From NCBI RefSeq assembly GCF_026151205.1, contig NW_026971804.1, positions 1 to 40,000 on the forward strand: a stretch of 40,000 nt of DNA, in the 5' to 3' direction. Positions 148 through 22,670 of this stretch are shown one piece after another. Under the pieces are notes generated by a model. It searched no databases, was not told the origin of the DNA, and worked only from the letters and a program-made list of their open reading frames with translations. A program made the position numbers and the translations under genes. Position 1 is the stretch's first letter. Every line of letters begins with the position of its first letter. Origin of the DNA: Bolinopsis microptera (lineage: Eukaryota; Ctenophora; Tentaculata; Lobata; Bolinopsidae).

Positions 148-148
<1 letters not shown>

Positions 149-3200: not shown

Positions 3201-3656
3201 AAGCCTTTTAAATCGGGCATTCCAAGGAATCTCTATGGGGGGCCTGAGCGAGTCACGAGGGTTGGGGAAAAAAGGGGGGGTTCTCATTAAAAGTTAGTTG
3301 TTGCTCCCCCAAATTCACGAAACTTTTCTTAATAAATTTCTTGAACAAAAGAACAAGTGCCGTTTTGACTCCCAAAATGGGGAAAAAAGTAATAAATTTT
3401 TAAAATCCCGCTAGTAAAGCCCCGCGGGGGTGCGGGGCTTTTTTTGGATACTTGAAAAAATTTGGTTATTAGATAGTTATAGTAAAACTGCAACAAATAA
3501 ACCGCGCCAGCTTGCGCGTTTGAGTAGCTTCTACGAAATCGCTCGCCCAAATTTTAAGAGAATTCTTGTGAAAAAGCCGTTGGGTATGACATTGATCTAA
3601 ATTGGAGTATTTTTTGGACGCTGATCCCGAATCACCGGCCATGACGTAGGGTAAAA
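300..3656 (-). repeat. Left arm of giant inverted repeat (degraded copy)
   Basis: Read on the minus strand, this arm follows 4557-7235. For example, 2090-2180 in reverse matches about 5810-5890, 3051-3110 matches about 5040-5110, and 3481-3656 matches 4557-4735 at roughly 90% identity. The part between about 300 and 1560 contains two successive copies of the material found once at about 6780-7230, so this arm is about 680 bp longer. Homopolymers are consistently longer than in the right arm. No gene is supported here; the short ORFs are repeat translations. A 73-residue minus ORF at 3329-3550 mirrors one at 4662 in the other arm. Confidence 0.8.
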
Positions 3657-4556
3657 ACCGTGTTAGTCACGTGACAGGCTAGTAAAAACATGATTTCGAT
3701 TGTTTTAGGGCTCATGTTAGGGTTTGGGTTGTGGTACGCGGGTTAGCTTCGGGGTTATGTTTGGGATTAGGGTTGATGTAAAATTGTTTTGTACTGCAAA
3801 ACCATAAAAACCAAGGTCACGTGAAATTTTTGGGCGAGCGAAATAGCAAGAGCCGGTTTTTATACAAAAATAAGCGTACACATGATATACAATGCAATAA
3901 AATAGGTAGTGCGCCATGCATCGACAGTGAGCCGCGCGTGCCGACTGTAGGATGGTTTTTTAGCGCTAATTTCGGCGAGCACAATTTTCTTCAAACAAAT
4001 AAATATTGAATATCCTTCCCGACCTTTGATTGCTACAAAAATTGTTAAGCTTACTTATAAACTTACAAGAAAGGTGTCCGAAAAGTTTAAAGCATATCCA
4101 ACCATCAGACTGAGACATTATGTTACAGCTAAAAGCAGCGTATTTTGCTCCATTTTGATCACTATATTAACTCCGATATCCACCAAATTTTTCGGACAGT
4201 TGTGAAAGCCCTATTGGAAGGTCGTCGCCAATTTCAGAATGATCTCATTCAAGGAACTGAAGATATATCCAAATAATACGACAAAAATCAACGAATTTGG
4301 TCAAATTTGGTCAAATTTCGCAACTTTTACAGCTAATTTTGCTCCAAAAGCCGCGCACCATCAAATATGGCACCTAGGCGAAACTCACTGATCTTTCCAA
4401 AAAGGTATGACAAATTTGGTATTGTGAAAATTCTCACAGTCTCTAGAAAACAATGGTACAAAAAATTTTAAAATCCGAGCAAGTTTATTTTTATGGTGCA
4501 CCCCCTAAATAAAGCTAAGAGTAAGCTAAGAGTAACTCCAAACTCTCCAGGGAAAT
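3657..4556. other. Spacer of giant inverted repeat, no gene seen
   Basis: About 900 bp of non-palindromic sequence between the two arms. It contains degenerate TTAGGG-like words near 3715-3780 and two CACGTG motifs near 3670 and 3819. Two overlapping 60-odd-residue ORFs at 3717-4009 lie on opposite strands and resemble nothing I know. Confidence 0.6.
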
Positions 4557-7235
4557 ATTTTACCCTACGTCATGGCGGGTGATTCGGGATCAGCGTCTAA
4601 AAATACACCGATTTAGATCAATGTCATACCAAAAGCCTTTTCACAAGAAGTTTCTTAAAATTTGGGCGAGCGATTTCGTAGGAGCGACTCAAACGCGCAA
4701 GCTGGCGCGGTTTATTTGTTGCAGTTTTACTATTTAATAACCAAATTTTACAATTTTATCTCAGCACGCCTGCACGCGCGCGGCTTTACTAGCGTATATA
4801 TACATTACTTTTTTTTCTTATTGGTAGTCAGCGTGTACTTGTTTTTATGTCCAAGATTGATTATGAACAAGTACGTGAATGCTGGTCACGCACACATGCT
4901 AACTTTCAATGAGTACCGCACTTTTTTCAGACGTCGTGATTCGCTCAGCCCGACTAGAGATTCCTTGGAATGACATGATTGAACAGGCTTGCAATAATTT
5001 AATTTCATATACTATATTTTTCTTTTGCAAGTTCTGAATGTGAAGTGTGTATGACTGATGTCGATGACGCAGCGCGCATCGACCGCCACCAGGACAACCA
5101 CCACCATTAACAACATATAAATTAACGCTTGCAAGCGCTTTACAATTTTTGACAATTATTGGTCGGAGAACTTTGCCGCGCCGTGCACTTAGCCTTCTTG
5201 CTTGGCTTCTAGATCGCCAGTCAACAACTATGTTTAAATCCATGTTGATAAATGATAGATAAATCGGTAAAAACCAGCAATAAAAGTGAATGTAATCGCT
5301 TATAACCGCTTTTCAAATCCTTAGGGGCAGCATTAAAAAAGCGCTTATAAGCGCTTTCTAATTCCTGCCAACCAGCCCATGGGTGATGCCGATGGGAAAA
5401 GCGGTAGATAAGCGATCATAAGCGCCTATAAGCGCTTTTTAAATCCTGACTCTGCCGGTGCACCCCAGGTTGCTCAGAAAAGCACATACGAGTGGGCACT
5501 CTCCAGTTCCGACCAGGTTGAAGGGAATTGAGAAATCGCTTACAAGCGCTTCTTAATTCCGGGCACTCCCCCCGTTGCGACCAGGTTAGGGGCAGCATTG
5601 TAGCGCGATGCGTTACTGAGCCGCGCCGCGCACTCAATAAGGCTTCTCACAGCGACATGATCGGCGAAATGCGCTACCTGTGCCGCGCCGAGCTGCCATG
5701 AATTGACATCGTCAATTAAGGGGCAGCATTGAAAAAGTGCTTATAAGCGCCTTTTAATTCTGGGCACTCCCCCGTTGCGACCAGGTTAGTGGCAGCATTG
5801 AAAAATCAAAAAGCGCTTATAAGCGCTTTCTAATTCCTGCCAACCAGGCCATGGGCGATAGGAAAAGCGGTAGAAAAGCAATCATAAGCGCCTAAAAGCG
5901 CTTTTAAATCCTGACTCTGCCGGTGCACCCCAGGTTGCACAGAAAAGAACTTATAAGCGGGCACTCTGATTTCCAGTTCCGACCAGGTTAAGGGGGATTC
6001 AGAAGTCGCTTATAAGCGCTTATTAATTCCAGGCACTCCCCCGTTCCGACCAGGTTAGGGGCAGCATTGAAAAAACGCTTATAAGCGCTTTATAATTCTT
6101 GCCAACCAGGCCATGGGTGATGGGAAAAGCGGTAGAAAAGCAATCATAAGCGCCTATATGAGTATAAGCGCTTTTAAATCCTGACTCTGCCGGTGCACCC
6201 CAGGTTGCTCAGAAAAGCACATGCAAGTGGGCACTCTCCAGTTCCGACCAGGTGGAAGGGAATTGAGAAATCGTTTATAAGCGCTTTTTAATTCCGGGCA
6301 CACCCCCGTTCCGAACAGGTTAGGGGCAGCATTGAAAAAACGCTTATAAGCGCTTTATAATTCTTGCCAACCAGGCCATGGGTGATAGAAAAAGCGGTAG
6401 AAAAGCGATCATAAGCGCCTATAAGCGCTTTTAAATCCTGACTCTGCCGGTGCACCCCAGGTTGCTCTGGGGTGCACTCTCCAGTTCCGACCAGGTTAAG
6501 GGGAATTGAGAAATCGCTTATAAGCGCTTTTAAATTCCGGGCACTACCTGAGTACCCCGTTCCGACCAGGTTAGGGGCGGCATTGAAAAAGCGCTTATAA
6601 GCGCTTTTAAATTCCGGGCACTCCCCCGTTCCGACCAGGTTAGGGGCAGCATCGAAAAAGCGCTTATAAGTGCTTTTTAATTCCTGCTCACCTGGCCATG
6701 GATGATAGGAAAAGTGGTAAAAGCGGTGAAATAGCAATGAATTAGCCGTAATAATAAGCGATTTCTAAAAAAACGCTTATAATCGATTATAAGCGGTTAT
6801 AAGATGTAATATAGCGTTTTCCTGACTCAATTTTAAAAGCGCTTATAAGCGCTTTATTTACGCTTTACAAACAGCTAAATTGCACCCCAATTATAAGCGT
6901 TTATAATCGCTTATAAATGGTTCAAAAAAGCGCCTACGAATCGCTTATCCGGCCAACCGCTTATCCACCCGTTTTTGGCGCCAATCCTACTGGAAAACCG
7001 CTTTCAAATCGCTCAGCGACGCTAGTAAACGCTTAAAAGCGCTTATAAGCGCTTTTAAATTAAAAAAGCGCTTTTTTGAATTATGACACCAATTATAGTC
7101 GATTATAAGCGATTTTTTTTGAACCGTTTATAATCGTAAAAAAGCGATTGTAAACGGTTTAAAAAAAAAAAGCGCCGAGAAAGCGCCCAATAAGCGATTA
7201 TTGGCGCCGATAATAAAATATCGTTTATGGAAACT
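4557..7235 (+). repeat. Right arm of giant inverted repeat (clean copy)
   Basis: Reverse complement of the left arm. The inner part (4557-5240) carries a 103-residue plus ORF at 4662-4973 and a 114-residue minus ORF at 4899-5243. Neither has a recognisable domain, and the first has a diverged counterpart in the left arm. The outer part is a tandem array (5280-6740) followed by AGCGCTT-rich sequence to 7235. Two arms with a 900-bp spacer fit a fold-back element or a palindromic duplication. Confidence 0.8.
5280..6740 (+). repeat. Tandem array of about 265-bp units with an 18-bp palindromic core
   Basis: The landmark CCATGG recurs near 5377, 5849, 6112, 6377 and 6697, and CACCCCAGGTTG near 5461, 5926, 6198 and 6452, giving spacings near 263-265 bp plus longer or shorter variants. 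Each unit holds several copies of the perfect palindrome AAGCGCTTATAAGCGCTT or close variants, separated by phrases such as GTTCCGACCAGGTTAGGGG. A 149-residue minus ORF (6288-6737) is only a translation of these repeats, with recurrent YKRFFNAAPNLVGTGEC-like blocks, and is not a credible gene. Confidence 0.85.
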
Positions 7236-7244
7236 TGCCTTAAA

Positions 7245-7610
7245 CAGCAATTGAATTTTAGGAATTCAGCACAATAGAAGTGTTATCACGAAAAAGCACT
7301 TGAAAAGGGTCATTTTTTACTAACCTTCAATTCTCGTTGAACTGGTTGAAGCTGATATCCTCTCTTTCTTCCTGTTGAACATTCGTATAGTCTTTATACA
7401 GCATCGTCTTCGTTCCTGGAGTTGGTTATTAATAACTTGAGATAAGAGTAAATTATCATTAATTGACGATATAAAGATCTTCTCGCTTTTGCCATTTGAA
7501 ATGGAAAGCACCGGATTTCCAGTCAGTTTCTAATATTTACTAGACAATATCACCAAGCTATCAATGGCGTATGTTATTACAATTGACTAGATTCTACGTA
7601 TTAAGTATAG
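7245..7610 (+). repeat. Direct repeat E, copy 1
   Basis: Starts at AATTGAATTTTAGGAATTC and runs to about GATTCTACGTA. It aligns with 8447-8825 in the same orientation, with several indels. It follows the right arm of the inverted repeat immediately. No protein is recognisable in either copy. Confidence 0.75.
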
Positions 7611-8218
7611 GTACGTACCGTAATTGTAGCTGCTGATAAAAGCTGAAAGTAGGTTTAAAAACGAAGGCAAATAAGTTTGCTTTTCTAAGGTTGTTATATA
7701 TCAGGGCTGGATAAACTTCAGCAGTTCAAAACTAATTAAAACACTACAAATCTATTACATTTATTGAGTATTATGTAACGCGATGGAAATATTTTAAGCG
7801 GGTAATATTATCCTGTCCAAACCCAGGATACATAACATGAAGACTTTGTTGTAACTTTGTATGAGAAGTATTAAAATAAGCCTAATAATGTTAAAATTTT
7901 TTGGATATTGATTGAGCAGTTTTTTGAAAGATTTCGACGAAAAGAGTAATCCTCCGCTTCTTAGCTTCTTGTACTTGCTGCTCACAGCTCATAAAATGGT
8001 CAACAAAGGATTCATATCTTTTCAGTTGAAAGGTTCGTTCCTACTAAGTAAGGGTCTGAAACAAATTGTTATAATATGATATAATAGCAATACATCAAAC
8101 CTTTGTTAAATCTTTGAATAGATTTTGAATTTAATTTAATGTTAAATACATATTTATAAATAATATGTATTTAACATTGAATAATTTTTATGAATGTTTA
8201 AAAACACAAATATGACTC
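7611..8218. other. AT-rich spacer with a small perfect hairpin, no gene seen
   Basis: Sequence between repeat E copy 1 and repeat D copy 2. A 17-bp perfect inverted repeat at 8138-8154 and 8162-8178 has a 7-nt loop. Otherwise nothing is recognisable; a 63-residue minus ORF at 7794-7985 has no known features. Confidence 0.5.
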
Positions 8219-8275
8219 ACAGTGATGGAGTTATGTGTCTTTTTTCAGGGTATTCATCACTTATCAATGCCATGA
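8219..8275 (+). repeat. Direct repeat D, copy 2
   Basis: Matches 6-58 in direct orientation. Here it is only about 170 bp upstream of repeat E copy 2. At the first locus, D and E are separated by about 7.2 kb that includes the giant inverted repeat. Confidence 0.6.
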
Positions 8276-8446
8276 AGCTCGTTTCTGTAATCTGTATTCT
8301 GAAATGGTGATTTGGTTGCTGAGTGACACATTATTTCTGGTATTGTACATGTAATTTCTGGTAATCAACACGGTTCATGTTCAAAATGTAAAATTTGGTC
8401 ACAGTTAAATTGAAAATAATTTAGATAATAGCAATGTGTTTTAAAG

Positions 8447-8825
8447 AGCAATTGAATTTTAGGAATTCAGCACAATAGAAGTGTTGCAGTATATGACGAA
8501 AAAAAACAAACACTTTAATTGGACATTTTTCTTACTACCATGAATTCTCATAGATTAATTGGAGGTGATATTCTCTCTCTTTCTTCCTGTTCATCTCTAT
8601 TCTGTCGAAATTCGTATAGACTTTATACATCATCGTCATTGTTCCTGGGGTTGTTAATTAGTAACTTGAGATAGGAGTAGATTATCTTTAGACCTTATTA
8701 AGATCTTCTGGCTTTTGTCATTTGAAATGGAAATCACCGGATTTGCGGTTAGTTTCTAATATTTGCTAGACTATATTATTAAGGGTTTATGTTGTAACAT
8801 TGAGCTAGATTCTACGTACATCTCA
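8447..8825 (+). repeat. Direct repeat E, copy 2
   Basis: Second copy of the 360-380-bp repeat seen at 7245-7610. Shared words include GAATTTTAGGAATTCAGC, CTCTCTTTCTTCCTGTT and GCCATTTGAAATGGAAA-like stretches. Confidence 0.75.
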
Positions 8826-9314
8826 CGATTGCATTAAGTGTTTTATTTTAATTTGATATATTTATGAAACAAAGTGTTTTACTATGTTAGAAAGAAAATG
8901 CATCCTTTGTTAAATTTTTGAATTTAAATTGATTTTACATTTTATTTTGCTTTGTCAAATGCTGTTGTGTTGAGATCTCAGAGCAGGTTACCTCGATAAC
9001 TTTTCTGGGGACTTATGGGTATTGGGTTTCTGCTGTCATACTTTTCCACCCGGAAAACTCCAACATCCTTTTTTATTTAGATATCTAAGTTAGATTGCAG
9101 TATCATCTGAGCTATTTGTCATAGCCCATCAACTGTAAGATTAGATAAATCAGTTTTCTATAGTAATATAGCCATTAACCAACTCTCCCCCTTAAGACAT
9201 TATTTTACCCCCTTTCACCGGTTATGCTGATACTATCCTGGTTGTATGAAGAGTTTAGTTATCCTTTTGTAGTGATGATATGGTCATTTAGCATATCCGC
9301 TTTTACAAATATAC
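8826..9314. other. Intergenic or intronic sequence, no confident feature
   Basis: AT-rich sequence. On the minus strand near 8975-9030 there is a weak hint of a decayed sushi-like fragment (VIEVTCSE), but a stop lies just upstream and it cannot be called an exon. Confidence 0.4.
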
Positions 9315-9509
9315 CTGTATTTATACACTCAGGTTCATTAAAATCGAAAATAAATTCCGTTCCTGAGGTGCAGGTCACCTCGCTGCTTCCTTTATTGAGA
9401 GCTCTGTATTCAACACAATTCACTTCCACCACGGTTCCTGGGACTACTGGGAACTGTGTTGTTGTTCTGATCGCAGTTCTCCACTCAGCCTTCAGTCCCG
9501 TACAGCTCA
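9315..9509 (-). CDS. Exon encoding a sushi/CCP-like module (partial gene)
   Basis: A 195-bp minus-strand exon of 65 codons, bounded by an acceptor CAG at 9510-9512 and a GTATAT donor just below 9315, with phase-1 introns on both sides. It translates to a module with four cysteines in the contexts SCTG, VNC, VTC and PEC, with the phrases PVVPGTVVEVNC and SSEVTCTSGTEF. The spacing fits a sushi/complement control protein fold, usually about 60 residues with two disulfides, although the tryptophan usual between the third and fourth cysteines is missing. Such modules are extracellular and typically mediate adhesion or ligand binding. It lies downstream of the ephrin-like exon at 9861-9766 on the same strand and is probably a later exon of the same gene. 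No start or stop codon of the gene is visible. The exon is well supported; the specific function is unknown. Confidence 0.72.
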
Positions 9510-9765
9510 CTGTCGATATGTCATATTAAATCACGTAAAACTGATTAATAAGGGTTATTTTGACGGTTTCTTATGTTCTCTTCCGCAGTTCCGCGATTTA
9601 GTTTTCCTGTCCCAACCCGAATCCTTTCAAGCAACCTCAAATATAACTATACTATCGTTCGCTTAGGGGTCCAAGTCTCACATACTGTATACAATTTACT
9701 ATTCTGTAGCGCAGTTAAATAAAATTTAAAACATAACAATAATATAAGATTTAAAGTTATCTTAC

Positions 9766-9861
9766 CACAGGCAGTTTTGTTAGTGTTTGGTTTCCATCCA
9801 GCTTCACATGTCTCACAGCTTGCCATAGCATCATTCCGATATGTTCCTTCCCCACACGGCT
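9766..9861 (-). CDS. Exon type A, ephrin-receptor-like cysteine module (minus-strand copy)
   Basis: A 96-bp minus-strand exon encoding 32 residues with the cysteine pattern CX12CX2CX12C, beginning EPCGEGTYRNDAM. The acceptor (AATTCCAG) and donor (GTAAG) match those of the plus-strand type A exons. Introns are phase 1, so the first Glu codon is split. The spacing matches the GCC2_GCC3/ephrin-receptor-like family of disulfide-rich extracellular repeats. It differs from the plus-strand copies by an AGWKPNTNK stretch in place of AGLTPNSDK. Its upstream intron carries the 3' half of the same B-to-A intron seen near 11204-11540, in reverse, up to about 10316. It therefore appears to be the natural continuation of the plus-strand cluster after an inversion. 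Confidence 0.75.
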
Positions 9862-10181
9862 CTGGAATTATAACGTTATATATTATTACAACTGGTAAAT
9901 CGTTGTGGAAGATAAGGAAATCGTTATTATATAAGTACACTTCAGATGTGTTTCAATTAAATTTGATTTAAAACAATAGGTGAATAATTAAATATCCACA
10001 CAACCACGGTTTTCTTATAGAATTATTACCACCCAGACCAGGGACATAACAAAAGGATTTCGCTATTATTTTGGCCAAAAATCGCGATACTGCGAATTAC
10101 ATTTCGCGGTATATTAAACTATACATAAAATTTGTCGCAAATAATGGGAAAAAACGCGATTCCGTACATGCCGCGATTTCC

Positions 10182-10316
10182 GTTTGTCCCTGACCCAGAC
10201 TCTTACGGTTCTTGTCTTTTCGTACCACAAATTTGCCTTCTTGATTCTAAGCCCTATCTGGCGCCTTATCCTTATCCCGTCTTAACCCTTAGCCTATCTT
10301 TGCCCCTCTATATCAG
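10182..10316 (-). repeat. Intronic interspersed repeat, inverted copy
   Basis: Reverse complement of about 11255-11370 and 11990-12110. It contains the word GATAAGGGTTAAGACGGGAT on the minus strand. It ends abruptly at about 10316, which is one inferred inversion breakpoint. Confidence 0.7.
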
Positions 10317-10350
10317 TTGTGTAGGATAATTTTTGACGCAATTTAAACTT
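10317..10350 (-). repeat. Left half of a split interspersed repeat at an inversion breakpoint
   Basis: Read on the minus strand this matches 18760-18790 (GTTTAAAT...CAAAAA..ATCCTACACA) with few mismatches. The continuation of that repeat is missing here; it is found at 12759-12822. Confidence 0.65.
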
Positions 10351-10516
10351 ACTAACAAAAAATACTATTAGCTTTCTCCCTGTGACCACGGGTTTTCTAG
10401 TATTGTTATAAATCTAATGTTATTGTAACACATCTTAACTGCACTTAAATAGTTATATAATAACGATTTTCTTATCTTCCACTACGATTTACCAATTTTA
10501 AATTTATTAATTCCAG

Positions 10517-10612
10517 AGCCGTGTGGAAAAGGAACATATCGGAATGATGCTATGACAAGCTGTGAGACATGTGACGCTGGATTGACACCAAACTCTGATA
10601 AAACAGCCTGTG
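10517..10612 (+). CDS. Exon type A, ephrin-receptor-like module, plus cluster exon 1
   Basis: A 96-bp exon between an AATTCCAG acceptor and a GTAAG donor, with phase-1 introns on both sides. It encodes 32 residues beginning EPCGKGTYRNDAM with CX12CX2CX12C cysteine spacing, as in GCC2_GCC3/ephrin-receptor-like repeats of extracellular proteins. It is the first recognisable exon of the plus-strand cluster. The 130 bp before it resemble the 3' half of the B-to-A introns, so it once followed other modules. No start codon or signal peptide is visible upstream. It is very close to the type A exons at 10800, 11541 and 12279, which shows recent tandem duplication. Confidence 0.72.
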
Positions 10613-10799
10613 GTAAGATAACTTTGAAGCTTATTAAATTAAATATTATTGTTATGTTTTAAATTTGAATTAACTGTGCTATAGAATGAAAACTGAGGAC
10701 ATTGGTACTCACAATAACTTCTTGATATTAATATACTTATATAATAACGATTTTCTTATCTTCCACAAAAATTTGCCATTTGTAACGTTATAATTGTAG

Positions 10800-10895
10800 A
10801 GCCGTGTGGAGAAAAATTATATCGGAATGATGCTATGACAAGCTGTGAGATATGTGACGCTGGATTGACACCAAACTCTGACAAAACAGCCTGTG
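10800..10895 (+). CDS. Exon type A, ephrin-receptor-like module, plus cluster exon 2
   Basis: A 96-bp phase 1-1 exon, acceptor TTGTAG and donor GTAAG, encoding a 32-residue CX12CX2CX12C module. Compared with the other type A exons it reads GEKLYRND instead of GEGTYRND and CEIC instead of CETC. The family's short glycine-tyrosine motif after the first cysteine is therefore altered, but all four cysteines are kept. It follows another type A exon directly, whereas the rest of the cluster alternates A and B. Confidence 0.72.
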
Positions 10896-11059
10896 GTAAG
10901 ATAACTTTAAAGCTTATATTTAATATTATTGTTGTGTTTTAAATTTGAATTAACTGTGCTATAGAATGAAAATCGAGGATATTGTTACTCACAATAACAT
11001 CTTAATATTACTAAGGTAGTTCAAACGAATTGCTGCTTAAAGATTTACTAATTCTTCAG

Positions 11060-11203
11060 AGCCATGTCCAGCTGGAAGCTACAAGAACATTGATATGAAC
11101 ACATGTGAAGAATGTCCTGATAACACGATCAGTTCAGAAGGAGCAGCCTTGTGTACAGCTTGTGAACTTGGCCAGGAACGAAACTCAGGGAGAACAAAAT
11201 GTG
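11060..11203 (+). CDS. Exon type B, ephrin-receptor-like module, plus cluster exon 3
   Basis: A 144-bp phase 1-1 exon (acceptor ATTCTTCAG, donor GTAAG) encoding 48 residues with six cysteines in the pattern CX12CX2CX12CX2CX12C, starting EPCPAGSYKNIDMNTC. This is one repeat longer than type A and is close to the GCC2_GCC3 consensus (PAGSY, CxxCP, ISSEGA). The following 337-bp intron contains an interspersed repeat and leads to another type A exon. The A plus B pair recurs at about 740-bp intervals. Confidence 0.75.
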
Positions 11204-11254
11204 GTAAGAATTGTTAATAAGAATCGAGCTGAGATGATTATATCTATATTATAT

Positions 11255-11415
11255 AGATGGGCAAAGATAGGATAAGGGTTAAGACGGGATAAGGATAAGG
11301 CGCCAGATAGGACTTAGAATCAAGAAAGCAAATTTGTGGTACGGAAAGACAAGAACCGTAAGAGTCTTGGTGGTAATAATTCTATCTAAAAACTGTGGTT
11401 GTGTGGATATTTAAT
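11255..11415 (+). repeat. Intronic interspersed repeat, copy between exons 3 and 4
   Basis: Contains GATAAGGGTTAAGACGGGAT and GGATATTTAA-like words shared with 11990-12160. The same sequence occurs in reverse at 10182-10316 and, partly, at 13005-13112. It was carried along when the A-B exon pair was duplicated. Confidence 0.65.
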
Positions 11416-11540
11416 TTTTCACCTATTGTTTTAAATCTTATGTAATTGTAACACATCTGAAGTGTACTGATAAAATAACGATTTCCTTATCTTCCACAAC
11501 GATTTACCAGTTGTAATAATATATAACGTTATAAATTCAG

Positions 11541-11636
11541 AGCTGTGTGGGGAAGGAACATATCGGAATGATGCTATGACAAGCTGTGAGACATGTGACG
11601 CTGGATTGACACCAAACTCAGACAAAATAGCCTGTG
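11541..11636 (+). CDS. Exon type A, ephrin-receptor-like module, plus cluster exon 4
   Basis: A 96-bp phase 1-1 exon, acceptor AATTCAG and donor GTAAG, encoding 32 residues with CX12CX2CX12C spacing. It starts ELCGEGTYRND, with Leu replacing the Pro that precedes the first cysteine elsewhere, and has KIACG instead of KTACG. The reading frame is open and the splice sites are intact, so it can be functional. Confidence 0.72.
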
Positions 11637-11794
11637 GTAAGATAAATTCAAAGCTTATATTTAATATTATTGTTATGTTTTAAATTCAAATTAACTGTGC
11701 TATAGAATGAAAACTGAGGATATTGGTACTCACAATAACTTCTAAATAAGGTAGTTCAAACGAATTGCTGCTTAAAGATTTCCCGATTCTTCAG

Positions 11795-11941
11795 AGCCAT
11801 GTCCAGCTGGAAGCTACAAGAACATTGATATGAACACAATATGTGAAGAATGTTCTGATAACACGATCAGTTCAGAAGGAGCAGCCTTGTGTACAGCTTG
11901 TGAACTTGGCCAGGAACGAAACTCAGGGAGAACTAAATGTG
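11795..11941 (+). CDS. Exon type B, ephrin-receptor-like module with an extra codon, plus cluster exon 5
   Basis: A 147-bp phase 1-1 exon, one codon longer than the two other type B exons. An ATA (Ile) is inserted just before the second cysteine, changing the first spacing from X12 to X13. A Pro-to-Ser change follows the third cysteine (CSDN instead of CPDN). All six cysteines remain and the frame stays open. The flanking introns match those of exon 3. Confidence 0.72.
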
Positions 11942-11989
11942 GTAAGAATTGTTAATAGGAATCGAGCTGGGATGATTATATCTACATAG

Positions 11990-12160
11990 ATGTGCAAAGA
12001 TAAGAAGATAGGGTAAGGGTTAAGATGGGATAAGGATAAAACGCCAGATAGGGCTTAGAATCAAGAAGGCAAATTTGTGGTATGAAAAGACAAGAACCGT
12101 AAAAGTTTGGGTAGTAATAATTCTATCAAAAACCGTGGTTGTTTGGATATTTAATTATTC
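11990..12160 (+). repeat. Intronic interspersed repeat, copy between exons 5 and 6
   Basis: Second direct copy of the repeat at 11255-11415, in the homologous position of the next B-to-A intron. It differs by small indels and substitutions. Confidence 0.65.
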
Positions 12161-12278
12161 ACACATTGTTTTAAATCTAATGTTATTGTAACACATCTAA
12201 ACTGTACTTAAATACTTATATAATAACGATTTTCTTATCTACCACTACGATTTGCCAATTTAACGTTATTAATTCCAG

Positions 12279-12374
12279 AGCCGTGTGGGGAAGGAAAATA
12301 TCGGAATGATGCTATGACAAGCTGTGAGACATGTGAAGCTGGATTGACACCAAACTCTGACAAAACAGCCTGTG
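12279..12374 (+). CDS. Exon type A, ephrin-receptor-like module, plus cluster exon 6
   Basis: A 96-bp phase 1-1 exon (acceptor AATTCCAG, donor GTAAG) encoding 32 residues starting EPCGEGKYRND, with CX12CX2CX12C spacing. It lies 738 bp after exon 4, the period of the A-B exon-pair duplication. Confidence 0.72.
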
Positions 12375-12537
12375 GTAAGATAACTTTAAAGCTTATATTT
12401 GATATTATTATTGTGTTTTAAAATTAATTAAATGAGCTATAGAACGAAAACCGAGGATATTGGTACTCACAATAACTTCTTAATAATAATAAGGTAGTTC
12501 AAACGAATTGCTGCTTAAAGATTTCCTAATTCTTCAG

Positions 12538-12681
12538 AGCCATGTCCAGCTGGAAGCTACAAGAACATTGATATGAACACATGTAAAGAATGTCCTGATA
12601 ATACGATCAGTTCAGAAGGAGCAGCCTTGTGTACAGCTTGTGAACTTGGCCAGGAACGAAACTCAGGGAGAACAAAATGTG
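12538..12681 (+). CDS. Exon type B, ephrin-receptor-like module, plus cluster exon 7 (last before breakpoint)
   Basis: A 144-bp phase 1-1 exon (acceptor TTCTTCAG, donor GTAAG), six cysteines in CX12CX2CX12CX2CX12C, identical to exon 3 apart from Lys for Glu (CKEC). It is the last plus-strand exon. Its intron starts like those after exons 3 and 5 (GAATCGAGCTGAGATGATTA) and then runs into an AT-rich stretch at about 12721-12758 and unrelated sequence. The missing remainder of the intron is found on the minus strand below 10316. The module run therefore ends at a rearrangement, not a natural gene end. Confidence 0.74.
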
Positions 12682-12720
12682 GTAAGAATTGTTAACAAGA
12701 ATCGAGCTGAGATGATTATA

Positions 12721-12758
12721 TCTATATTATTATATTATATCTATATTATTATATTATA
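12721..12758. repeat. AT-rich tandem at inversion breakpoint
   Basis: Two copies of a roughly 20-bp TATCTATATTATTATATTAT-like unit. It lies exactly between the donor-side half of the exon 7 intron and the right half of the split interspersed repeat. Confidence 0.7.
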
Positions 12759-12822
12759 TGAAGATACAGCCAATTAAAATGTTGCTCGTACTAAACAAAT
12801 CGTATTATCAACAAAACCGATC
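12759..12822 (+). repeat. Right half of a split interspersed repeat at an inversion breakpoint
   Basis: GAAGATACAG..ATTAAAATG onward matches about 18798-18862 in the intact copy. The left half of the same repeat is at 10317-10350 on the opposite strand. Confidence 0.65.
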
Positions 12823-13677
12823 AAAATGACGTTAAAACAATCATTGCACGTGCACGTGCGTGTAATAACTTAATAACCCTCGTTACCATGCAGTTACTAA
12901 GCAAATTCATATTTTTCATCTAATTTGCACGTGGGCGGTCGTACGTACAGTGTACAAAGGGAATTCTCTGAATTATAGTAGAAATGTGAAAAATTAAATA
13001 TCCACATATTCCACGGTTTTTCGAAGAAATTATTGCCACCCAGACTCTTACGAAGTTACGATTCTTGTAATTTCGTACCACAAATTTTCCTTCTTGGTTC
13101 TAAGCCCAATACTAATTCAAATTGTTATCAGTCATAAGGATTAACGCTAAAAATTCGCCTCATCAACAAACTATAAAGCAATGCCCATTGCACGATGCAC
13201 AAATTGTGTAAACTCTGCAAAATAAATATTGAACCAAAAAAGTTTTGAGTTTGTTTGGTAAAATACCTTACTGCTTATGTTCAAGATATTTTGTAAAAAC
13301 GTCAGTTTACAATTGATAATTGTTTCAACCTTAGGAGCTGAAAATGGCTTGTCTCCATGATGTCTATTACAAAATATGCAATATTTCTAAATTATAGTTA
13401 GCCATTTTGCAATCTGGAAGAATCTGATTTTATCTCATTCGTAAAATAGTAATTGATAAAATGATGACCACTTTATTAAGTTATAAATAACAATATGTAC
13501 TAACTATCCTATATCCCATATCCTATAATATATGTGTTTATGTTAAATAACTAAATAACATACTTGAAATGTACACAGAAAACACGTAATCACGAGCTTA
13601 CGAGAGAATCAGCAAGTTGGCTTATTTGTAAATTAAAGTTATTGTTTGTTAAACCAATGCTTGTTGTTATTAGTCAC
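12823..13677. other. Probable intron of the minus-strand gene, no exon seen
   Basis: Sequence between the third-module exon and the breakpoint. The minus strand of 13005-13112 carries part of the intronic interspersed repeat (TTAGAACCAAGAAGG, ATATCCACA words). The rest is AT-rich and unremarkable. CACGTGCACGTGCGTG lies near 12848. Confidence 0.45.
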
Positions 13678-14112
13678 CTGGTTGTGTTCCGTAGTAATCA
13701 GATGCTGTGTCGGCGGGATGGAATATTATCTTTGCTACGTCCCTGTTCCAGATCGTGCCCCAGTCACTGTTACTACACGTTTGAGAGAGCAGTATGTTGA
13801 GCACCTCTACCTCGTTACAGTGTATCACTAGTCTGACACCTGCAGCCCTGGTTAGAGTGATACGCCAAACCTTGTTCGTATCAGAGGGGAGATTAACAGG
13901 GAAGTTAGTCCAGGATTTGGTGCACCAGTGGAGGTAGTATTGTGGAGTAGAGCTGAAGTAGGGGTAGACTCCTCCTGCTCTCTCTCCCCCAGCAGAATAG
14001 AAGTTCACATGCACCTCATCGTCACTCCCCAGAACACTATTAGTTTGAATTTCTAAAGGTGTCGACTCAAGATCCCACTCTATTTTCACCTCACGTTTCA
14101 CTGGTAACCAAC
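13678..14112 (-). CDS. Exon encoding an uncharacterised extracellular-type module (partial gene)
   Basis: A 435-bp minus-strand exon of 145 codons, phase 1 at both ends: acceptor AACAG next to 14113 and donor GTGAC below 13678. A second in-frame acceptor at 14101 would shorten it by 12 bp. The product has three cysteines and stands out for WRITLTRAAGVRLVIHCNEVE, a tryptophan pair around SNSDWGTIW, and a closing DTASDYYG. Alternating hydrophobic residues suggest a beta-sandwich domain. I have an unverified memory of similar domains next to sushi and cysteine-rich repeats in cnidarian-type multidomain proteins, and the farnesoic acid O-methyltransferase-like (Methyltransf_FA) family is one candidate, but I cannot confirm either. 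No signal peptide or start codon is seen. It is probably the most upstream exon here of the same gene as the ephrin-like and sushi exons. Confidence 0.7.
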
Positions 14113-14221
14113 CTGTTAATTGTATGTTTAATTCATGACTACTGAGCAACGATTAATGAATATCATGAATTTAATGAAGTGTTCTAGCAAATTGTTAAGG
14201 AATTGTATGAATGTCGCACAA

Positions 14222-15693
14222 ACCTTATCGGACCTTATTTGGACGGACATTACATGAACGGACATAATTGTGAACGGACATTAATATGAACGCTCGAAGG
14301 CATTCAAAACCATCAAAAATCTGCATTTTTTCAATTTTTGACTTTTTTAAAATTTCAGCAAATGATTTTTTAATCCATTTTTTATACAGTAAGTAAGAAT
14401 AGCAGTCATTAAGCAGTAAATATGTTAAAATATGTGTACATTATCAGCGCTAGTGTCTAATATCACATATCATTTCTGTAATATAATTTTTCTGTAATAT
14501 AATTTTGGAATTTGGCCGCCAAATTTTTTTTGAGGCCTAAATAAAAAATCCGTTCTTAAAATAAGGTCGAAATGCAATTTCGAGTCAATTCCAAAAATTT
14601 CATGCAAAAATTTTGAAAACTGATTGAGTTGTTACAATTTTAATGGGATCAATTCCGCGAATATTGCAAACCGAGATAGGGGCAATTTAGTTCAATTTTT
14701 GTGGTTTTTTCGCCTTAGTATCCTCATTTAATACTACTTACCTTTCATATAAAGTAAGTTTCATTCAAAAATATTGATATTTGACCAATTTATGGGACGA
14801 AATCTACCAAATTTGGTGTGTATGCCCAAATATGGGCATATTGTTTTTGGCTCATAACTCAGTCATTTTTTGTCCGATCTTGATAAAACTTCATATACGA
14901 GTTCAGGAGACCACTAGCTACAAGTAGAGTTCCATAAACCTGGTTTTGGGCATGTTCAGGGCATTTGGCTAAATTCGGCCTAATTTGGACCAAATATGGG
15001 CGTGGCTGCCCTGCGCGCACCGTTTGGCGGTTGGGGTCCGGGACCCCCTCAAAAGTTCGGTCACTGGCCTTAGTTTGTTGGTCAACTGCTATCTCGAAAT
15101 CAAGTTTCACAAAAAAATACCCATTGCCCCCCCCCCCCCCCCCCCCCTTAACTTTTACAAGCCATTCGGCGTGAAGTGGTTTTTATCTTAGACAACTTTA
15201 GGTTAACCTTAACATCACGTGGAGCTTTCTTACTGTTTAGCACTGTTTCATTACCTCCCCTCAGTAATATGAACTATAAAAACGTCGGACAATGTCATTG
15301 GCAACACGATTTACCGTAATACTAATATCTAGAGGCTGGAACACGTTTGTCATGTTGGCGGGGACTAGTTCATGAACTATGTTGTTGAGTGCCATGATTT
15401 CGTTGACATTTTCCTCCAAGTGACCCTTGAAAACATCATATACTAGTAGAGTTTTCTGTGCCTCCGGCAGACCAAGGAGAACCTTTTCGTCGTTAACTTA
15501 CGGCACAATAAAGTTCTCATAGTTGTCATATTCTGGGTAAAAAGTTCGAAATGGAAAAGTTTTTGAAAAAATTTCAACGGACTTTAACTTGGACGGACAT
15601 TCATTGAACGGACTTTATTTGAACGGACATTAAGATGAACGCTAGGGCCTCCAGCGTTCAAGTAATGTCCGTCCAAATAAGGTCCGATAAGGT
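14222..15693. mobile_element. Non-autonomous DNA transposon-like element with 39-bp terminal inverted repeats
   Basis: The ends 14222-14260 and 15655-15693 are reverse complements with one mismatch, beginning ACCTTATCGGACCTTATTTG. Inside each end are short repeats of GAACGGACATT. The 1.47-kb interior has no transposase-like ORF; short overlapping ORFs at 14859-15191 are not convincing. It includes a 21-bp poly-C at 15127-15147. No clear target-site duplication is visible at the outer edges. The class is unknown. Confidence 0.75.
15127..15147 (+). repeat. Poly-C tract, 21 bases
   Basis: Uninterrupted C run within the TIR element. Confidence 0.9.
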
Positions 15694-15720
15694 AGTTTAT
15701 TCTCAGAATTTAAGGGCCCG

Positions 15721-16769
15721 ACCATACTATGACTGGTGTCACCATGACTGTTGTCATGGTGCGGTCAGATTTAATTACCATAATATGTACGTAGTGTGTT
15801 TATAGGGCGTGCCAGGATACGTGACAACTCCTCAGGCACTCGGCTTTTCAAAAGCCGTACCTAGCTGATAATCCGTGCCTGACGTGACTGCAGGCACAGT
15901 CTATTCAGTACTCGTGCCAACTGTCATGGATAACACGACGTCACGATTACCTAATAAGGTCAATATTTTGCGTGATATGGACATTTGCAGTGCAGAATGC
16001 AAAGATAGACGATAGTACTATAGTACAGACAGATCCGTCTAAAAAAATCGATCTACTGACAGCAGAAGCTTCCAAAGGATTTATGACGTTTTTAGGTTCA
16101 ATTTTAAGTTTCATTCGGGTGGCCAACTTTTCCAAAATTGTCCACGTGTCTTAAGGCCACTTTTTGCCACTTTTGCCACTTTTTACCTCCTTTCTTGTTT
16201 TTCAAATATCTTCAGCTGTGAACAACGTAGAAGGATACGAATTAATAGAGGGTAATTATCATATCGACGAAAAAAACTTTTGTAAGACAAATGTTCATGT
16301 CAGACACTGACAATTCGATAATTGGATAGTTACAAATTAGCAAGTAACCAAAAATCATAAAAATGTTTATTGGCTCAAAATGATCGGAATTTCTTGAAAT
16401 ACCGGGAAAGGTAGTACAGGTAGTTTATGAAAAAACTTTCGAAAATTTAAATTTTGTTTTCCGCCAAAAGTTAATTCGGATAGAAGTTCTAATGAAAGCA
16501 TCAAACCATGGTTTGGTGGCCGAACTGCATCCGACCGAATTGGTCCCCATTGGGAAACAGATTGGTCCCCACTGGGAATCGAACCCCAGTCGTCCGTGTG
16601 TGAAGTAAATGTATTAAAACAACTAAACCACCCGGCCGACGTGACAGCACTCACATTTTACTATTTTAATCCAAAATAATTTATGTTTAGAAATCGAGCC
16701 TAAAATCATGACAAATGGCAGTGTGTTAAGAGGCCGTGCCTTTACTCGTGACAACAGTCATAGTATGGT
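15721..16769. mobile_element. Putative element with 22-bp terminal inverted repeats
   Basis: 15721-15742 (ACCATACTATGACTGGTGTC...) is the reverse complement of 16748-16769 with one mismatch. The left end continues into further GTCATGG/CCATGAC inverted words. The 1.05-kb interior has no transposase; two opposite ORFs of about 60 residues at 15947-16154 are not recognisable. A tRNA-like SINE segment lies near the right end. No target-site duplication is evident, so this call is less certain than the preceding element. Confidence 0.5.
16560..16637 (-). ncRNA. tRNA-derived SINE-like segment with A and B boxes
   Basis: On the minus strand there is an A box TGGTTTAGTTG (16630-16620) and, 45 bp further, a perfect B box GGTTCGATTCC (16585-16575), the internal RNA polymerase III promoter of tRNA genes. 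The 5' end GGCCGGG followed by T8 at 16630 is in the expected position. The last T-arm pairs are imperfect and the 3' side does not pair with the 5' acceptor strand, so this is not a functional tRNA and is best read as a tRNA-derived SINE head or tRNA pseudogene. A local duplication of GATTGGTCCCCA follows it. Confidence 0.65.
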
Positions 16770-18480
16770 TCTTACTTCCTTTTCCCATAGGAAGTATACA
16801 AATTTGCGAAATTTGCGACTAAAATTATGGTATTACCAAAATGTTTGTAACCAAATTTATTGTGAACCAAATTTATTGACCTTAGTCCTTAAGGTATTTT
16901 TTATGCGATACATCGCATAAATATCATTATGGTAAACTTTTAATCAGTATATTATGTAATCATTTGATTCAACCTGTTATCCGGTTTGCAGGAACCATGT
17001 AATTCAAATTTTTCCCGATTACTTCATTTCTCGATTACTTCGCTGCCTATTAGGTGCCTTGCCGTCACTCGATAGGCAGCAGTATTTATGCGACCAGCTC
17101 TGTAAACATTGTTTCTTACAACGATATATTATGCTATCTTTTATAATCCAATATTCTAGAACTTTACACCTTGTTGTATTTGCAAAAGATCAAAGCATAC
17201 AGACTGTTACAATGCTGAAAAACAGCAAACTTTTTTCCCTAGAGCGTTAATTGTATTGACGGAGGTCACTAGTATCAAGATCTTAGTTTTAAGTTATATT
17301 TAAACAAAACACTTATTCAACAATAGATGTATCTCCAATCAAATAATGTAACTACACAAGCCACAGCAATTATAAGTCTATGATATGTAGCAATTATAAG
17401 TCTATGATATGTAGGCTAAGACATCTAGAAAATGCCGTTTTGAGTATAAGTTGTTAACTCAGAGTCAGACCCCTGTTTGTTGCAGCTGTTAGATTTAGCA
17501 TGAAGCAAACAGAAGAGTGAATTACCGAGAATTAAACAATTTGAACTTATTGTAGTGGCACCAGATCAGGATTTTTAATGTTTTCATTTAGTTCTTGATT
17601 CTTTTCTGTTTGATCCCTGTCACCCTGTGGTCAATTCAAAAATAATACTTTCGACACTTGCACTTCTACTGGATAAACTTCACCCCATTGGACACACTAC
17701 CTATAGCTCTTATCCCGACGTACACTAAGTATCAGCCCGAAAGCAGCTCAAAAATATTTCTACTGAGTTTCATTAATTTAGTTAACCTAAATTCGTTACA
17801 ATTTGCAGGCCGTGAATGAATGGGGAAAATGAGCGACCGATTACATTCCCGGTATCATTTTGCATAAATTTGAGAACGGTAACTTAAATTGATTTACTTC
17901 CTTTGTGTCTGGAAAAAGGAGATACGGTCGATGGTCCAATCTACCCAATTTTTGGTTTTGGTGAAAAGTATTTAATACTATAATTATCTCATTTCAACGG
18001 GTATAAATGATACTATTTCTATTTTCTATAACGATAAATTGTTGATCTATTTTTGATCAATGATAACTAAAATAGCAGCTCATGCATGCACATGTCACGT
18101 AGCTTACCACAGAGAGATAGCGAGATGATTTGTAGGAATATTAACTTCGTTTGAAGATTCCGCATGTCTGCCATTCTACATTGTTAGAAAAATCGATGTT
18201 TAACTTTAAACGAAATATCAACAACTGAAGATTGAGAAAAGTACATAATACAAGTTTACTAATTAACTCGCCAGAGTGCTATCACGTGAATTAAATGAAT
18301 TTGTGTATTTGCAGCGGTTTTGTAAACCCTAATCCTATCCAGTAACCATGACCCCGAAGTTGATCACTATGACCGTAATTCATGTTTTACAAGGCTGTCG
18401 TGTGACCAAAACAGTTTTTGCCGATTATAACTTCTTGGGCAAGCGTTTCAACCCTATACATTTATAGCAACCCTATATAT
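16770..18480. other. AT-rich intergenic sequence with a 24-bp tandem duplication, no gene seen
   Basis: Two perfect copies of a 24-bp unit (GCAATTATAAGTCTATGATA...) at 17366-17389 and 17390-17413. A short inverted repeat GCTGCCTAT/ATAGGCAGC lies at about 17042-17082. ORFs of 60-70 residues show no known features. Confidence 0.5.
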
Positions 18481-18488
18481 TTATAGCA

Positions 18489-18520
18489 GGTAATTCGGAA
18501 TCAGCGTCCAAAATACATCG
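18489..18520 (+). repeat. Solo copy of the inner end of the giant inverted repeat
   Basis: GGTAATTCGGAATCAGCGTC and the following bases resemble 4579-4612 (GGTGATTCGGGATCAGCGTC) and the reverse strand of about 3600-3635. This suggests that the arm end belongs to a dispersed family. Confidence 0.5.
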
Positions 18521-18759
18521 AACGAAGCTTATACTATTTTTACATACTTTTATGGCCGGGCTCTTTCCTAAACGTTTCAAATATCATTGGCGAATGATAA
18601 CTAGCAGAAAGCCCATACTCTACATCATTCTGCCATCCTCTAAAGACTAAATAAGCGGGTCTACAATCACCATCTTGCGATTAATTTTGCGACTAAATAA
18701 TTTTAATCTTACATCTTTCTAGAGGCAAACATCATATTGTATGATACTTAAAAACCCGT

Positions 18760-18884
18760 GGTTTAAATGGCGCCAAAAAATATCCTACACATGAACCGAA
18801 GATACAGACGATTAAAATGTTGCTCGCACTAAACACTTAAACACAGCGTAATTTCAACAAGCGTAGGGGCGCTTTTTCGGCGCC
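18760..18884 (+). repeat. Small interspersed repeat (intact copy of the split repeat)
   Basis: Contains two GGCGCC words (18769-18774 and 18879-18884) flanked by A and T runs. Its left part matches the minus strand of 10317-10350 and its central part matches 12759-12822, so it shows the two halves contiguous. Confidence 0.6.
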
Positions 18885-18916
18885 AACAGGCAATGTTACA
18901 CCACTGATTTAACTTG

Positions 18917-18930
18917 CCCCCCCCCCCCCC
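18917..18930 (+). repeat. Poly-C tract, 14 bases
   Basis: Uninterrupted C run. The text after it (ATAAAATCTCTAAAAAAGT at about 19021-19039) resembles 248-268 after the poly-C at 86-147, suggesting that a poly-C-bearing repeat family links the two places. Confidence 0.8.
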
Positions 18931-19089
18931 GCTGAAAAAGCTCCCTCCTGTTGGTGACCCCTCCCATTTTGGCGTCCCTCCCTAAAATTGGACAAATTTG
19001 ATGATTTTAGAGGATACGCCTATAAAATCTCTAAAAAAGTGTGTTTTTAGAGCAAAACGTGCACTTTTCATAGTACCGTAGTTAAGCTT

Positions 19090-19432
19090 TCCAAAATTGT
19101 CCCACATCACGTGTCCTTGTTTCGTAAATACTCGGTCACGCGATCACATTCGTAACGTGTCGTATGCCGAATAGAGGAATAGGATAGTCGGCATACAACT
19201 ACGTCACCAGAGCTGAAGCTACTTGATCAGGCCTTAAATGGAATAGTATATTGTATCGCGTGTAATTGGATCCAATTATAATAGGAGCTGCACAATTATT
19301 GCAGCATCTTGATCTGGTATCAGTTATTACCTTTTGAAACCTACCAGGCAGCTGAGCCAGAAATTTGAAGATAGAAGGATTTTTTGTTAATGAATATCGA
19401 AGCGAAAATCATGTAACCCTATGTTTTCGAGG
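19090..19432 (-). repeat. 340-bp repeat, copy A (inverted)
   Basis: Reverse complement of 21989-22330, including AGGATAGTCGGCATAC, GCAGCATCTTGATCTGGTAT and ATCATGTAACCCTATGTTTT. Small indels separate the copies. Together with copy B it forms an inverted pair enclosing about 2.5 kb. Confidence 0.8.
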
Positions 19433-19714
19433 ACGCTAAACAAGATAAAACTGGTTATAATTATCATACTCAAGGGCAAATTATTTAAAATGCACTTATT
19501 TTTCATATTATTATCATAAACTTGGCTGTCATAGATGATATTATAAGCTATCGGCTTATCGGATGGCACCGGTCTCTCTGCCGAATCTCAGTAATTGTAA
19601 ACAATGACTCTAGTTCTCAGCTAATGATAGTGCTTGTCAGAAGGAAAGATCTCGAGTTCAGAAGACGAAAGAAATTTTTCCAAATATTTGCCTAAGATAA
19701 ACGAATACGGATAT

Positions 19715-19788
19715 CTGTAGTAGTGGAACAGCAATACTAAGGTAATGGGACCTTAGTATACCTTAGTATTGCTGTTCCACTACTACAG
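19715..19788. repeat. Perfect 30-bp inverted repeat with a 14-nt loop
   Basis: Arms 19715-19744 and 19759-19788 are exact reverse complements (CTGTAGTAGTGGAACAGCAA at the left). The loop repeats CCTTAGTA from the right arm. It could be a miniature fold-back element or a small-RNA hairpin. Confidence 0.9.
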
Positions 19789-20320
19789 AAATAATCCCGA
19801 TAACACTCGACCTCTGCCTGATCCAGAGGATATCACCATTTTACCTTCACACAGACATCGAACGCTGTACGAAGATGACGATCAGACCTCATTATGAATA
19901 CGGATATCAACCAAAATCGAAAAGGACTATCAAGGATTTTACCGGGACTTCTATAAGCAGTATTTCAAGTCTTCATAGCGGTTTCAGGATGAACTAACAG
20001 TATTTTAGGGTTGTGTTAGGGCTGCTTACAGATAGGTTGACGCTCCTGTTATATGAACTAGCAGGAACCCGTCTAACCCTAAAGTGGTGTCAAGACTTGA
20101 GAGACTAAAATAATTATTACATATTTAATTCGCGTTTTCAAATTTTTCAAAAATTCTGGGCACTAAAATTCTTATTTCTTGGCCAATTTTTTCATGCTGA
20201 TTTGAATGCCATTAAAGCATCAGTCAAAAAAAGTTTCAGTTTTACCTCTTTTACGGTTTTTGCGGAAAGCCGCGTTAAAGTTAATACCGTAGTGTCAGTA
20301 AAATGGTACGGATCCATCCA

Positions 20321-20548
20321 TATATATCCACCAGCGTGCGCTTTTTCGTATAACAGGCTCTCACCAGCCCGCTGTCAAAGGGCCCGATATCTTTACAGCC
20401 CGCTCATGATATAGCCCGCTAACAAGTGACATTTAATTTGACCAGTAGCAATATAGCCCGGAGTTCTCTAAAATAGAGATATCAGGCCCTTTGACAGCGG
20501 GCTGGTGAGAGCCCGCTATGCGAAAAAGCGCACGCTGGTGGATATATA
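20321..20548. repeat. Long hairpin, about 72-bp arms with an 85-nt loop
   Basis: 20321-20392 and 20477-20548 are inverted with four mismatches, all transitions. Arms start TATATATCCACCAGCGTGCG. The short word AGCCCGCT recurs in arms and loop. A related phrase (GCCCGCTGGTGGATAT) occurs again at about 20912-20927. Confidence 0.85.
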
Positions 20549-20962
20549 TATTTTATTTTTGTGTCCGTTAGGGCTGCTCATGCAGCTCGTGATCAGATGA
20601 CATGATACTTTGATTTATATCAAAGTTATTATAACACACTACATATAATACACATCAGCACTATAATAATCCCCCTATTATTGATATTCATCGTCACTGA
20701 CATTACATTCATTATTCTCACAGCCCAGGAATGCAGTGCCAGTATGGATCTCTTATCTCCAGCCCCTATATACGACACAGCCCTTTATGATTGGCGTACA
20801 TTGAACACGTGACGTGTTACCATGGTTACAACAATTAGTGGCGACCTTTTCTAGAGTTGACTTTTATACAAGCTCCATTGTTTATTTATAAGATTCTATA
20901 TTAACTGTAAAACGCCCGCTGGTGGATATAATCCACATCACCTCGACCCGCGGGCGGAAAAA

Positions 20963-21045
20963 TCGTATAGCACTCGGGCCCGATGGGCCCTCCGTGCTAT
21001 ACGAAAATATGTCCTCCTCGGGCTAGCGCCCTCGGGGACATATGA
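20963..21045. repeat. Two adjacent small hairpins
   Basis: First: TCGTATAGCAC (20963-20973) pairs with GTGCTATACGA (20994-21004), with an inner GGGCCC/GGGCCC pair. Second: ATATGTCC pairs with GGACATAT within about 21007-21043, with an inner CGGGC/GCCC(T)CG arm. Confidence 0.75.
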
Positions 21046-21186
21046 AATATAGTCTCCGGTGATATGTATATATATCGCGTCTCGCTTTATATATGGTAAG
21101 ATATTGATATTGGTGAGCTTGGCCCCAAACTCACCTATATCATGCAGGGGGATTAATATAGATCGCAAATACATATTAAATCGGTA

Positions 21187-22177: not shown

Positions 22178-22330
22178 CCTGATCAAGTAGCTTGAGCTCT
22201 GGTGACGTAGTCGTATGCCGACTATCCTAGTCGGCATGCGACACGTTACGAATGTGAACGTGTGTCCGACGATTTACGAATCAAAGTCACGTGATAGGAT
22301 CACCGGTCACGTGATAAGACCGACTGTCAC
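21989..22330 (+). repeat. 340-bp repeat, copy B
   Basis: Direct-orientation copy of the repeat at 19090-19432. It ends near a cluster of three CACGTG motifs. Confidence 0.8.
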
Positions 22331-22333
22331 GTG
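22288..22333. promoter_or_regulatory. Three CACGTG palindromes at exact 20-bp spacing
   Basis: CACGTG at 22288-22293, 22308-22313 and 22328-22333, each preceded by GT. CACGTG is the canonical E-box bound by bHLH proteins. Here it may simply be a 20-bp tandem repeat; no adjacent gene is recognised. Confidence 0.4.
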
Positions 22334-22670
22334 ACCTCAGTTATCCCTTGGAATTTCAATTATTAATCTTCCACCCGTAGTCCCTAAAAATATTTTACAA
22401 CACAGAAGAGAGATTGTATAAAATAATAAAAAATTCTGGCAAGGATCATAATTCTCTATATTAACTTATTATTAAGAGCTAGAGCGGCATAGGAAGTAGA
22501 TTAAATACAGAACCGAGACTTTAACAAATTGTTGTGTATTTACGTCTTCAGTTTACAAATAAGTGAAACACAAACATACTATGCGGGGGGACTACAGACC
22601 CCCTCAAAGTCATTTGTGTTATACATACTTATATACATAGGTACTTTGTGTCATACATACTTATAGTATC

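Follow-up and report, generated by a model that had tools for sequence, protein, structure and literature searches.

In the comb jelly Bolinopsis microptera, an unplaced contig of 40,000 bases (NW_026971804.1, here C45; "the window" denotes this whole stretch) carries on its minus strand a modular receptor-like gene, in which a block of seven exons lies in the opposite, plus-strand orientation. We explain this arrangement by a two-break inversion of about 2.45 kb, which would have shortened the stalk of the encoded protein in frame, the closest copy of the gene, at C13:4.30-4.32 Mb, being taken as the other haplotype; to this explanation as a whole we assign a probability of roughly 0.8. The inversion itself is a known kind of event, while its host is an unusual, hypervariable receptor-like family. 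Among the literature matches listed, none concerned the gene family or the inversion, as judged by title and the start of the abstract.

The inverted block and the ancestral exon order

The minus strand reads M, then the disputed block, then A8 and S, and the block itself, between M and A8, has the exon order A A B A B A B on the plus strand. All ten exons are preceded by AG and followed by GT, have lengths that are multiples of three and are in phase 1 on both sides. These coordinates, strands and splice borders bear out an earlier note on this DNA, which had noticed seven plus-strand exons amid the minus-strand M, A8 and S exons and had proposed the inversion; its designation of S as a sushi module is not borne out, no Pfam family matching that exon at E up to 1. 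The exons and the block are as follows.

13678-14112, minus strand: exon M, 435 bp, phase 1-1, predicted galectin-like fold, hypervariable
10314-12758, plus strand: inverted block, about 2.45 kb, each end within 1 base; its matches at C13 and C6 are opposite to the strand of the flanks
10517-10612, plus strand: exon A1
10800-10895, plus strand: exon A2
11060-11203, plus strand: exon B3, ephrin-receptor-like
11541-11636, plus strand: exon A4
11795-11941, plus strand: exon B5
12279-12374, plus strand: exon A6
12538-12681, plus strand: exon B7
9766-9861, minus strand: exon A8, the A-type exon that closes the array, on the original strand; absent from C13
9315-9509, minus strand: exon S, four-cysteine module, identical to the C13 copy

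Evidence for a flip comes from the two junctions, each of which can be repaired from material present at the other. The intron after B7 is incomplete, its similarity to the sister introns ending at about 12727-12740, and its missing half is found on the minus strand below about 10313. In C13 the last B intron is whole and contains AGAGGGGC, the form also found in the displaced intron half of the window and present in 1 of 25 introns listed by strict pattern. Likewise, an interspersed repeat is split at the break in the manner originally described, and its intact form recurs across the genome: a 25-base pattern over the rebuilt first junction is found exactly at four loci (C5, C6, C10 and C13), and with up to three mismatches at 241 places in the genome (100 of them listed), as against none for a control read backwards.

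The order predicted for the unflipped gene is indeed present elsewhere in this genome. At C13 the reverse complement of window 12759-14177 directly abuts window 10313-12082, the sequence over this first junction being CTGTATCTTCAGTTGTGTAGG; the same join occurs at C6:19.43 Mb, which is unflipped on both sides, since on the far side its array is followed, at 94-97%, by window 10038-7774 in reverse complement. C5 and C10 likewise carry the first junction intact, whereas the junction words peculiar to the window (30 and 32 bases) are absent from all 58 loci examined. The irregular A-A start of the array is common to the window and C13 alone among the five loci compared (C45, C13, C6, C3 and C10). 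One flip thus accounts for both junctions, as had been claimed, and its ancestral product is known from elsewhere in the genome.

Across the family, exon orientation is highly uniform. Of 40 matches of the M exon, 29 have a B exon within 10 kb downstream, and the nearest one shares the strand of M in 28 and opposes it in one (the window copy); in the other 11 none was found. For S, 36 of the 40 have their nearest copy on the strand of M and none has it opposed, and four have no S within 15 kb. Mixed strands occur in none of the 39 runs of at least two B exons. The M, B and S counts are lower bounds, 40 of 134 M candidates and 150 of 943 B candidates having been scored; of 478 S candidates 150 were scored, and the comparison of M with S used the best 47 of these. 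Nor do the 28 and 36 all represent independent genes, since some M matches share a B run or an S exon (for example the groups at C4:15.50 Mb and C3:19.60 Mb). Because the unflipped order is found at C13 and C6 and the surveyed loci with both M and B are otherwise co-oriented, the flipped state is, on this comparison, the derived one. The idea that the block is a separate plus-strand gene with ends of its own was rejected, since neither an M nor an S exon lies within it and comparable loci keep to one orientation. A mobile element was likewise dismissed: the first 138 bases of the block are found again at C6 and C13, but there they form part of an intact colinear gene.

Comparison with C13 also fixes the breaks almost to the base.

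10310-10316: left breakpoint, where the minus-strand intron half (CCCCTCTATAT) meets the block start (TCAGTTGTG) with a 1-bp overlap
12756-12762: right breakpoint, where TATTATAT meets GAAGATACAG, again with a 1-bp overlap
12720-12758, plus strand: AT-rich 19-bp unit in two tandem copies at the break, missing from the matching C13 intron
12759-12960, plus strand: right part of the split interspersed repeat, the left part of which begins at 10313

Both breaks fall in introns, and each leaves one base ambiguous: T 10313 at the left break, which lies between 10312 and 10314, and T 12759 at the right break, between 12758 and 12760. The left coordinate of the block given in the earlier note, 10317, is therefore three to four bases off. 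From the ancestral first junction, the base C (1-3 bases, neighbours possibly included) is present at both breaks. No inverted match within 60 bases of the two break points in C13 exceeds 7 bases, a length reached by 58% of 995 random pairs, and an origin by recombination between inverted repeats was rejected on the ground that the breaks lack them. Since the breaks instead combine 1-bp overlaps, 1-3 duplicated bases and an AT-rich tandem duplication, the likely mechanism is end joining of two breaks. In this scheme staggered double-strand breaks, one of them in the AT-rich stretch, would have released the fragment, filling-in of the staggered cut would have left the C at both breaks, and end joining would have resealed the fragment in reverse, so that seven of the eight A/B exons came to lie on the opposite strand.

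Haplotype, duplicate or artefact

Window 7515-20058 is colinear with C13:4320324-4303561, and the mismatch between the two, computed without gaps, varies along this stretch as follows (values for C6 in brackets).

7515-9300, downstream: 0.6% over 1784 bases (C6 3.6%)
S exon: 0
9511-9752: 0.4%
9882-10228: 4 in 244 and 0 in 136
10317-10515: 3.0% (C6 1.5%, closer)
12759-13675, M-side intron: 2.0% (C6 5.6%)
M exon: 11.4% (C6 11.1%, equal)
14114-14220: 2.8%
15693-16864: 5.7% (C6 4.3%, closer)
16896-17376: 5.6% (C6 2.4% in the aligned 170 of 481 bases, closer)
17397-19330: 2.3%

In most of the stretches compared C6 is the more distant, and an insertion of about 155 bp at 10038-10193 is common to the window and C13 and absent from C6. 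From these comparisons we consider it moderately probable that the window is the other haplotype of C13:4.30-4.32 Mb. Since the window is read as that haplotype, the inversion is probably polymorphic.

Several observations weigh against this assignment. The outer parts of the window, 1-7.4 kb and 20.06-40 kb, mostly show no allele-like identity to C13:4284001-4332000, the exceptions being 24865-25531 (98.2%) and 4675-4991 (98.1%); in three stretches (10317-10515, 15693-16864 and the aligned portion of 16896-17376) C6 is closer than C13, and in M it is equally close; and the M exons of the window and C13 differ by 11.4%. Also, C13 as sequenced is not the exact parent of the window, because its array is shorter, with five exons, and A8 is missing. 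For window 1-4600, 20059-22660 and 39121-39780 no single allele-like partner was found, multicopy repeats appearing instead, and a sensitive BLAST search of 1-7600 against C13 returned diverged repeat matches with a few short close pieces. The segment C9:4143400-4148400, 90-95% alike to window 19332-25525, was taken to be a copy of a repeat-rich segment and not the allele.

The deviant flanks and the divergence of the M exons could alternatively mean that the flipped copy is a recent segmental duplicate with its own chromosomal position, and not an allele of C13. Against this, the contig is unplaced, and its mismatch with C13 outside the exons forms a mosaic of 0.4-5.7%, as is expected of recombining haplotypes. 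Moreover, two other unplaced contigs searched in the same way (C44 and C50) yielded repeats only, and in the assembly of Mnemiopsis leidyi 127 of 129 unassigned scaffolds were judged to be alternative haplotypes (PMC11797021). We therefore see a duplicate as a possibility of somewhat less than even odds. Another concern is that the assembler, working from noisy long reads, reversed a repeat-rich stretch of an unplaced contig. The window is indeed small (its neighbours C44 and C50 measure 46,345 and 42,873 bases), the gene is built of tandem repeats and the B. microptera assembly was made with wtdbg2, gap closing and haplotig purging (PMC10232365). Yet the two junctions are precise to the base, each with a 1-bp overlap, the duplicated AT-rich unit at one of them resembles repair and, the longest inverted match being at chance level, there is no inverted repeat that would mislead an assembler. 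An artefact is accordingly improbable, and the inversion, to judge from its junctions, is probably real.

The occurrence of one inverted block within a diversifying family of many loci also invites comparison with a programmed, repeatable exon-cassette switch resembling a shufflon. The breaks carry no inverted sites, however, and the array is opposed to M in 1 of the 29 M matches having a downstream B, so that neither sites at the breaks nor recurrence at sister loci was found; we regard a programmed switch as barely credible and retain the simple two-break inversion.

The two copies differ in further respects. The insertion at 10038-10193 has, by eye, AGGGACA/TGTCCCT-like ends and resembles a small non-autonomous DNA transposon. 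C13 in turn carries about 1.9 kb (C13:4315778-4317714; L002, L012) that the window lacks, placed at window 10220-10228, where a 9-base overlap could be a target-site duplication. At C13:4318087-4318090, opposite window 9753-9881, A8 is missing together with short stretches on each side.

The remainder of the window is rich in repeats. A 64-bp minisatellite occupies 25521-39120 (212 copies, 97% matches), and related short arrays occur at window 22668-22879 and on C9 near 4144728. A large imperfect inverted repeat spans 970-7237 with arms about 72-81% alike, has a multicopy element of about 600 bp in its middle (3903-4507) and has diverged relatives near C13:4326290-4331643. The 660 bases at 39121-39780 are matched at 100% (rounded) by C13:11873605-11874264 and, in two pieces at 99-100%, by C9:13987364-13988082, a very young copy. 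Finally, an inverted repeat of 34 bp, 97% complementary around a 14-base spacer, lies at 19711-19792.

Effect on the gene and its protein

The earlier note held that the inversion breaks the gene. Seven exons have indeed left the sense strand, but that the gene is broken does not follow from this, for the joined M-A8-S exons, 726 bases, contain no stop. The unflipped exon order gives 1545 bases, also without a stop, and 273 residues more. Because all ten exons are symmetrical in phase 1, the block can be skipped in frame; M would be spliced straight to A8, leaving a stalk 273 residues shorter, and the flip may thus have shortened the stalk of a surviving gene rather than broken it. Array length varies in any case within the family, with 10 B exons on C10, nine on C3, four on C6 and two on C13, and four M matches have an S within 250 bp downstream, with hardly any space for an array. 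On C3 (2888162-2894460; L003) nine closely similar A/B exon pairs stand in tandem at a spacing of 737-739 bp, an apparent sign of recent array growth or homogenisation.

It might be argued that the inversion destroyed the gene and left a pseudogene in which the block is trapped in antisense, seven of its eight stalk exons being gone from the sense strand. The three remaining exons are open, however, with intact splice borders and compatible phases; M matches with an adjacent S and no space for an array exist, and C13 still has open exons without A8. We consider a pseudogene unlikely, and in-frame shortening remains our preferred reading.

The nature of the protein is indicated partly by sequence and partly by predicted structure. 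Joined A-B-A-B exons score 50.8 bits against PF07699 (ephrin-receptor-like), well over the cut-off of 23.1, while a single B exon reaches 23. The M domain, searched as 37 members against Pfam, gave chance-level matches only, to 13 families (best E 0.01), with no galectin among them. Its predicted model, with a predicted local distance difference test (pLDDT) score of 89 and a predicted template-modelling (pTM) score of 0.83, nonetheless finds galectins: the best Foldseek match has an E of 5.5e-5 (5cbl_B, template-modelling (TM) score 0.55; TM scores about 0.45-0.60), VIA-align superposes 123 residues on 5xrj (Z 10.6, root-mean-square deviation 3.2), and among the rows shown 50 of 50 in Foldseek and 49 of 50 in VIA-align are galectins or galectin-like lectins. 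To be set against this are the lower scores of the other four M models (69.5-79.9), one GH32 enzyme in the 50 VIA-align rows, whose Z of 10.3 is level with the galectins, and a probability of 0.1 when hhalign compared the M profile with a galectin-1 sequence. We accordingly describe M as having a predicted galectin-like fold, and the protein as probably an extracellular recognition protein with a galectin-fold head and an ephrin-receptor-like, cysteine-rich stalk of variable length.

Of 40 M copies examined (L017-L055 and the window), 37 are open and entered the selection test, L024, L043 and L050 being excluded for stops, that of L050 lying beyond the aligned end and being possibly spurious. 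The mean nonsynonymous divergence (dN) is 0.184 and the mean synonymous divergence (dS) 0.136; dN exceeds dS in 569 of 666 pairs, or in 459 of 528 once four near-duplicates are removed, and the excess is reversed in 15 of 1000 codon bootstraps. In columns 31-76, a range picked after inspecting variability, dN/dS is 2.3 and is reversed in none of 1000, compared with 0.98 elsewhere. Thirteen of the 20 most variable columns fall in columns 33-75, often alternating over three neighbouring predicted strands, which, by eye, would correspond in the model to the sugar-binding strands of galectins. Because synonymous sites of the window and C13 M exons are about 10% apart, against 2-3% in the flanking introns, selection may be accompanied by gene conversion exon by exon or by old balanced variants.

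Taken together, these data permit a broader, tentative view, in which the gene would belong to a diversified recognition-receptor family of the comb jelly with more copies than the 40 counted, the strands of M would be under positive selection such that the head varies at its binding face, and cassette changes (the inversion, differences in array length and the loss of A8) would represent frame-preserving stalk-length alleles, the inversion acting as exon removal and not as a knockout. We would put this view at rather less than an even chance.

Known systems and biological meaning

Comparison with known systems places the event among familiar rearrangements. Polymorphic or pathogenic inversions that hit human genes, such as those in PMC4591017 and PMC12229492, likewise involve a fragment with an intragenic break and a known unflipped form; that of PMC4591017 spans 415 kb compared with 2.45 kb here, and the exons of the window differ in forming a symmetrical phase-1 tandem array, in which skipping keeps the frame. 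The human-chimpanzee microinversions of PMC8755829 are similarly small and were also found by comparing related sequences, but they measure 17-33 nucleotides and are all flanked by inverted repeats, which the 2.45-kb block lacks. The structural match to galectins spans the whole M domain, although identity is 5-14% with no galectin Pfam match, and M is unlike galectins in its hypervariable strands and multi-domain context. Ephrin-receptor-like or TNFR-like cysteine-rich repeats are matched above the PF07699 cut-off; the present family differs in its two alternating exon types and in its number of B exons, 2 to 10 in five loci. Complete Eph receptors of ctenophores have been described (PMC6485061).

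Because this genome still shows the ancestral junctions, the mutational mechanism of a small inversion is here directly open to study. The case further suggests a reason why arrays of symmetrical exons withstand rearrangement, in that a flip that would otherwise break a gene may do no more than reduce the length of its protein. Should the hypervariable galectin-like head bind glycans, whether foreign or self, the family would serve recognition in an animal lineage that was among the first to branch off.

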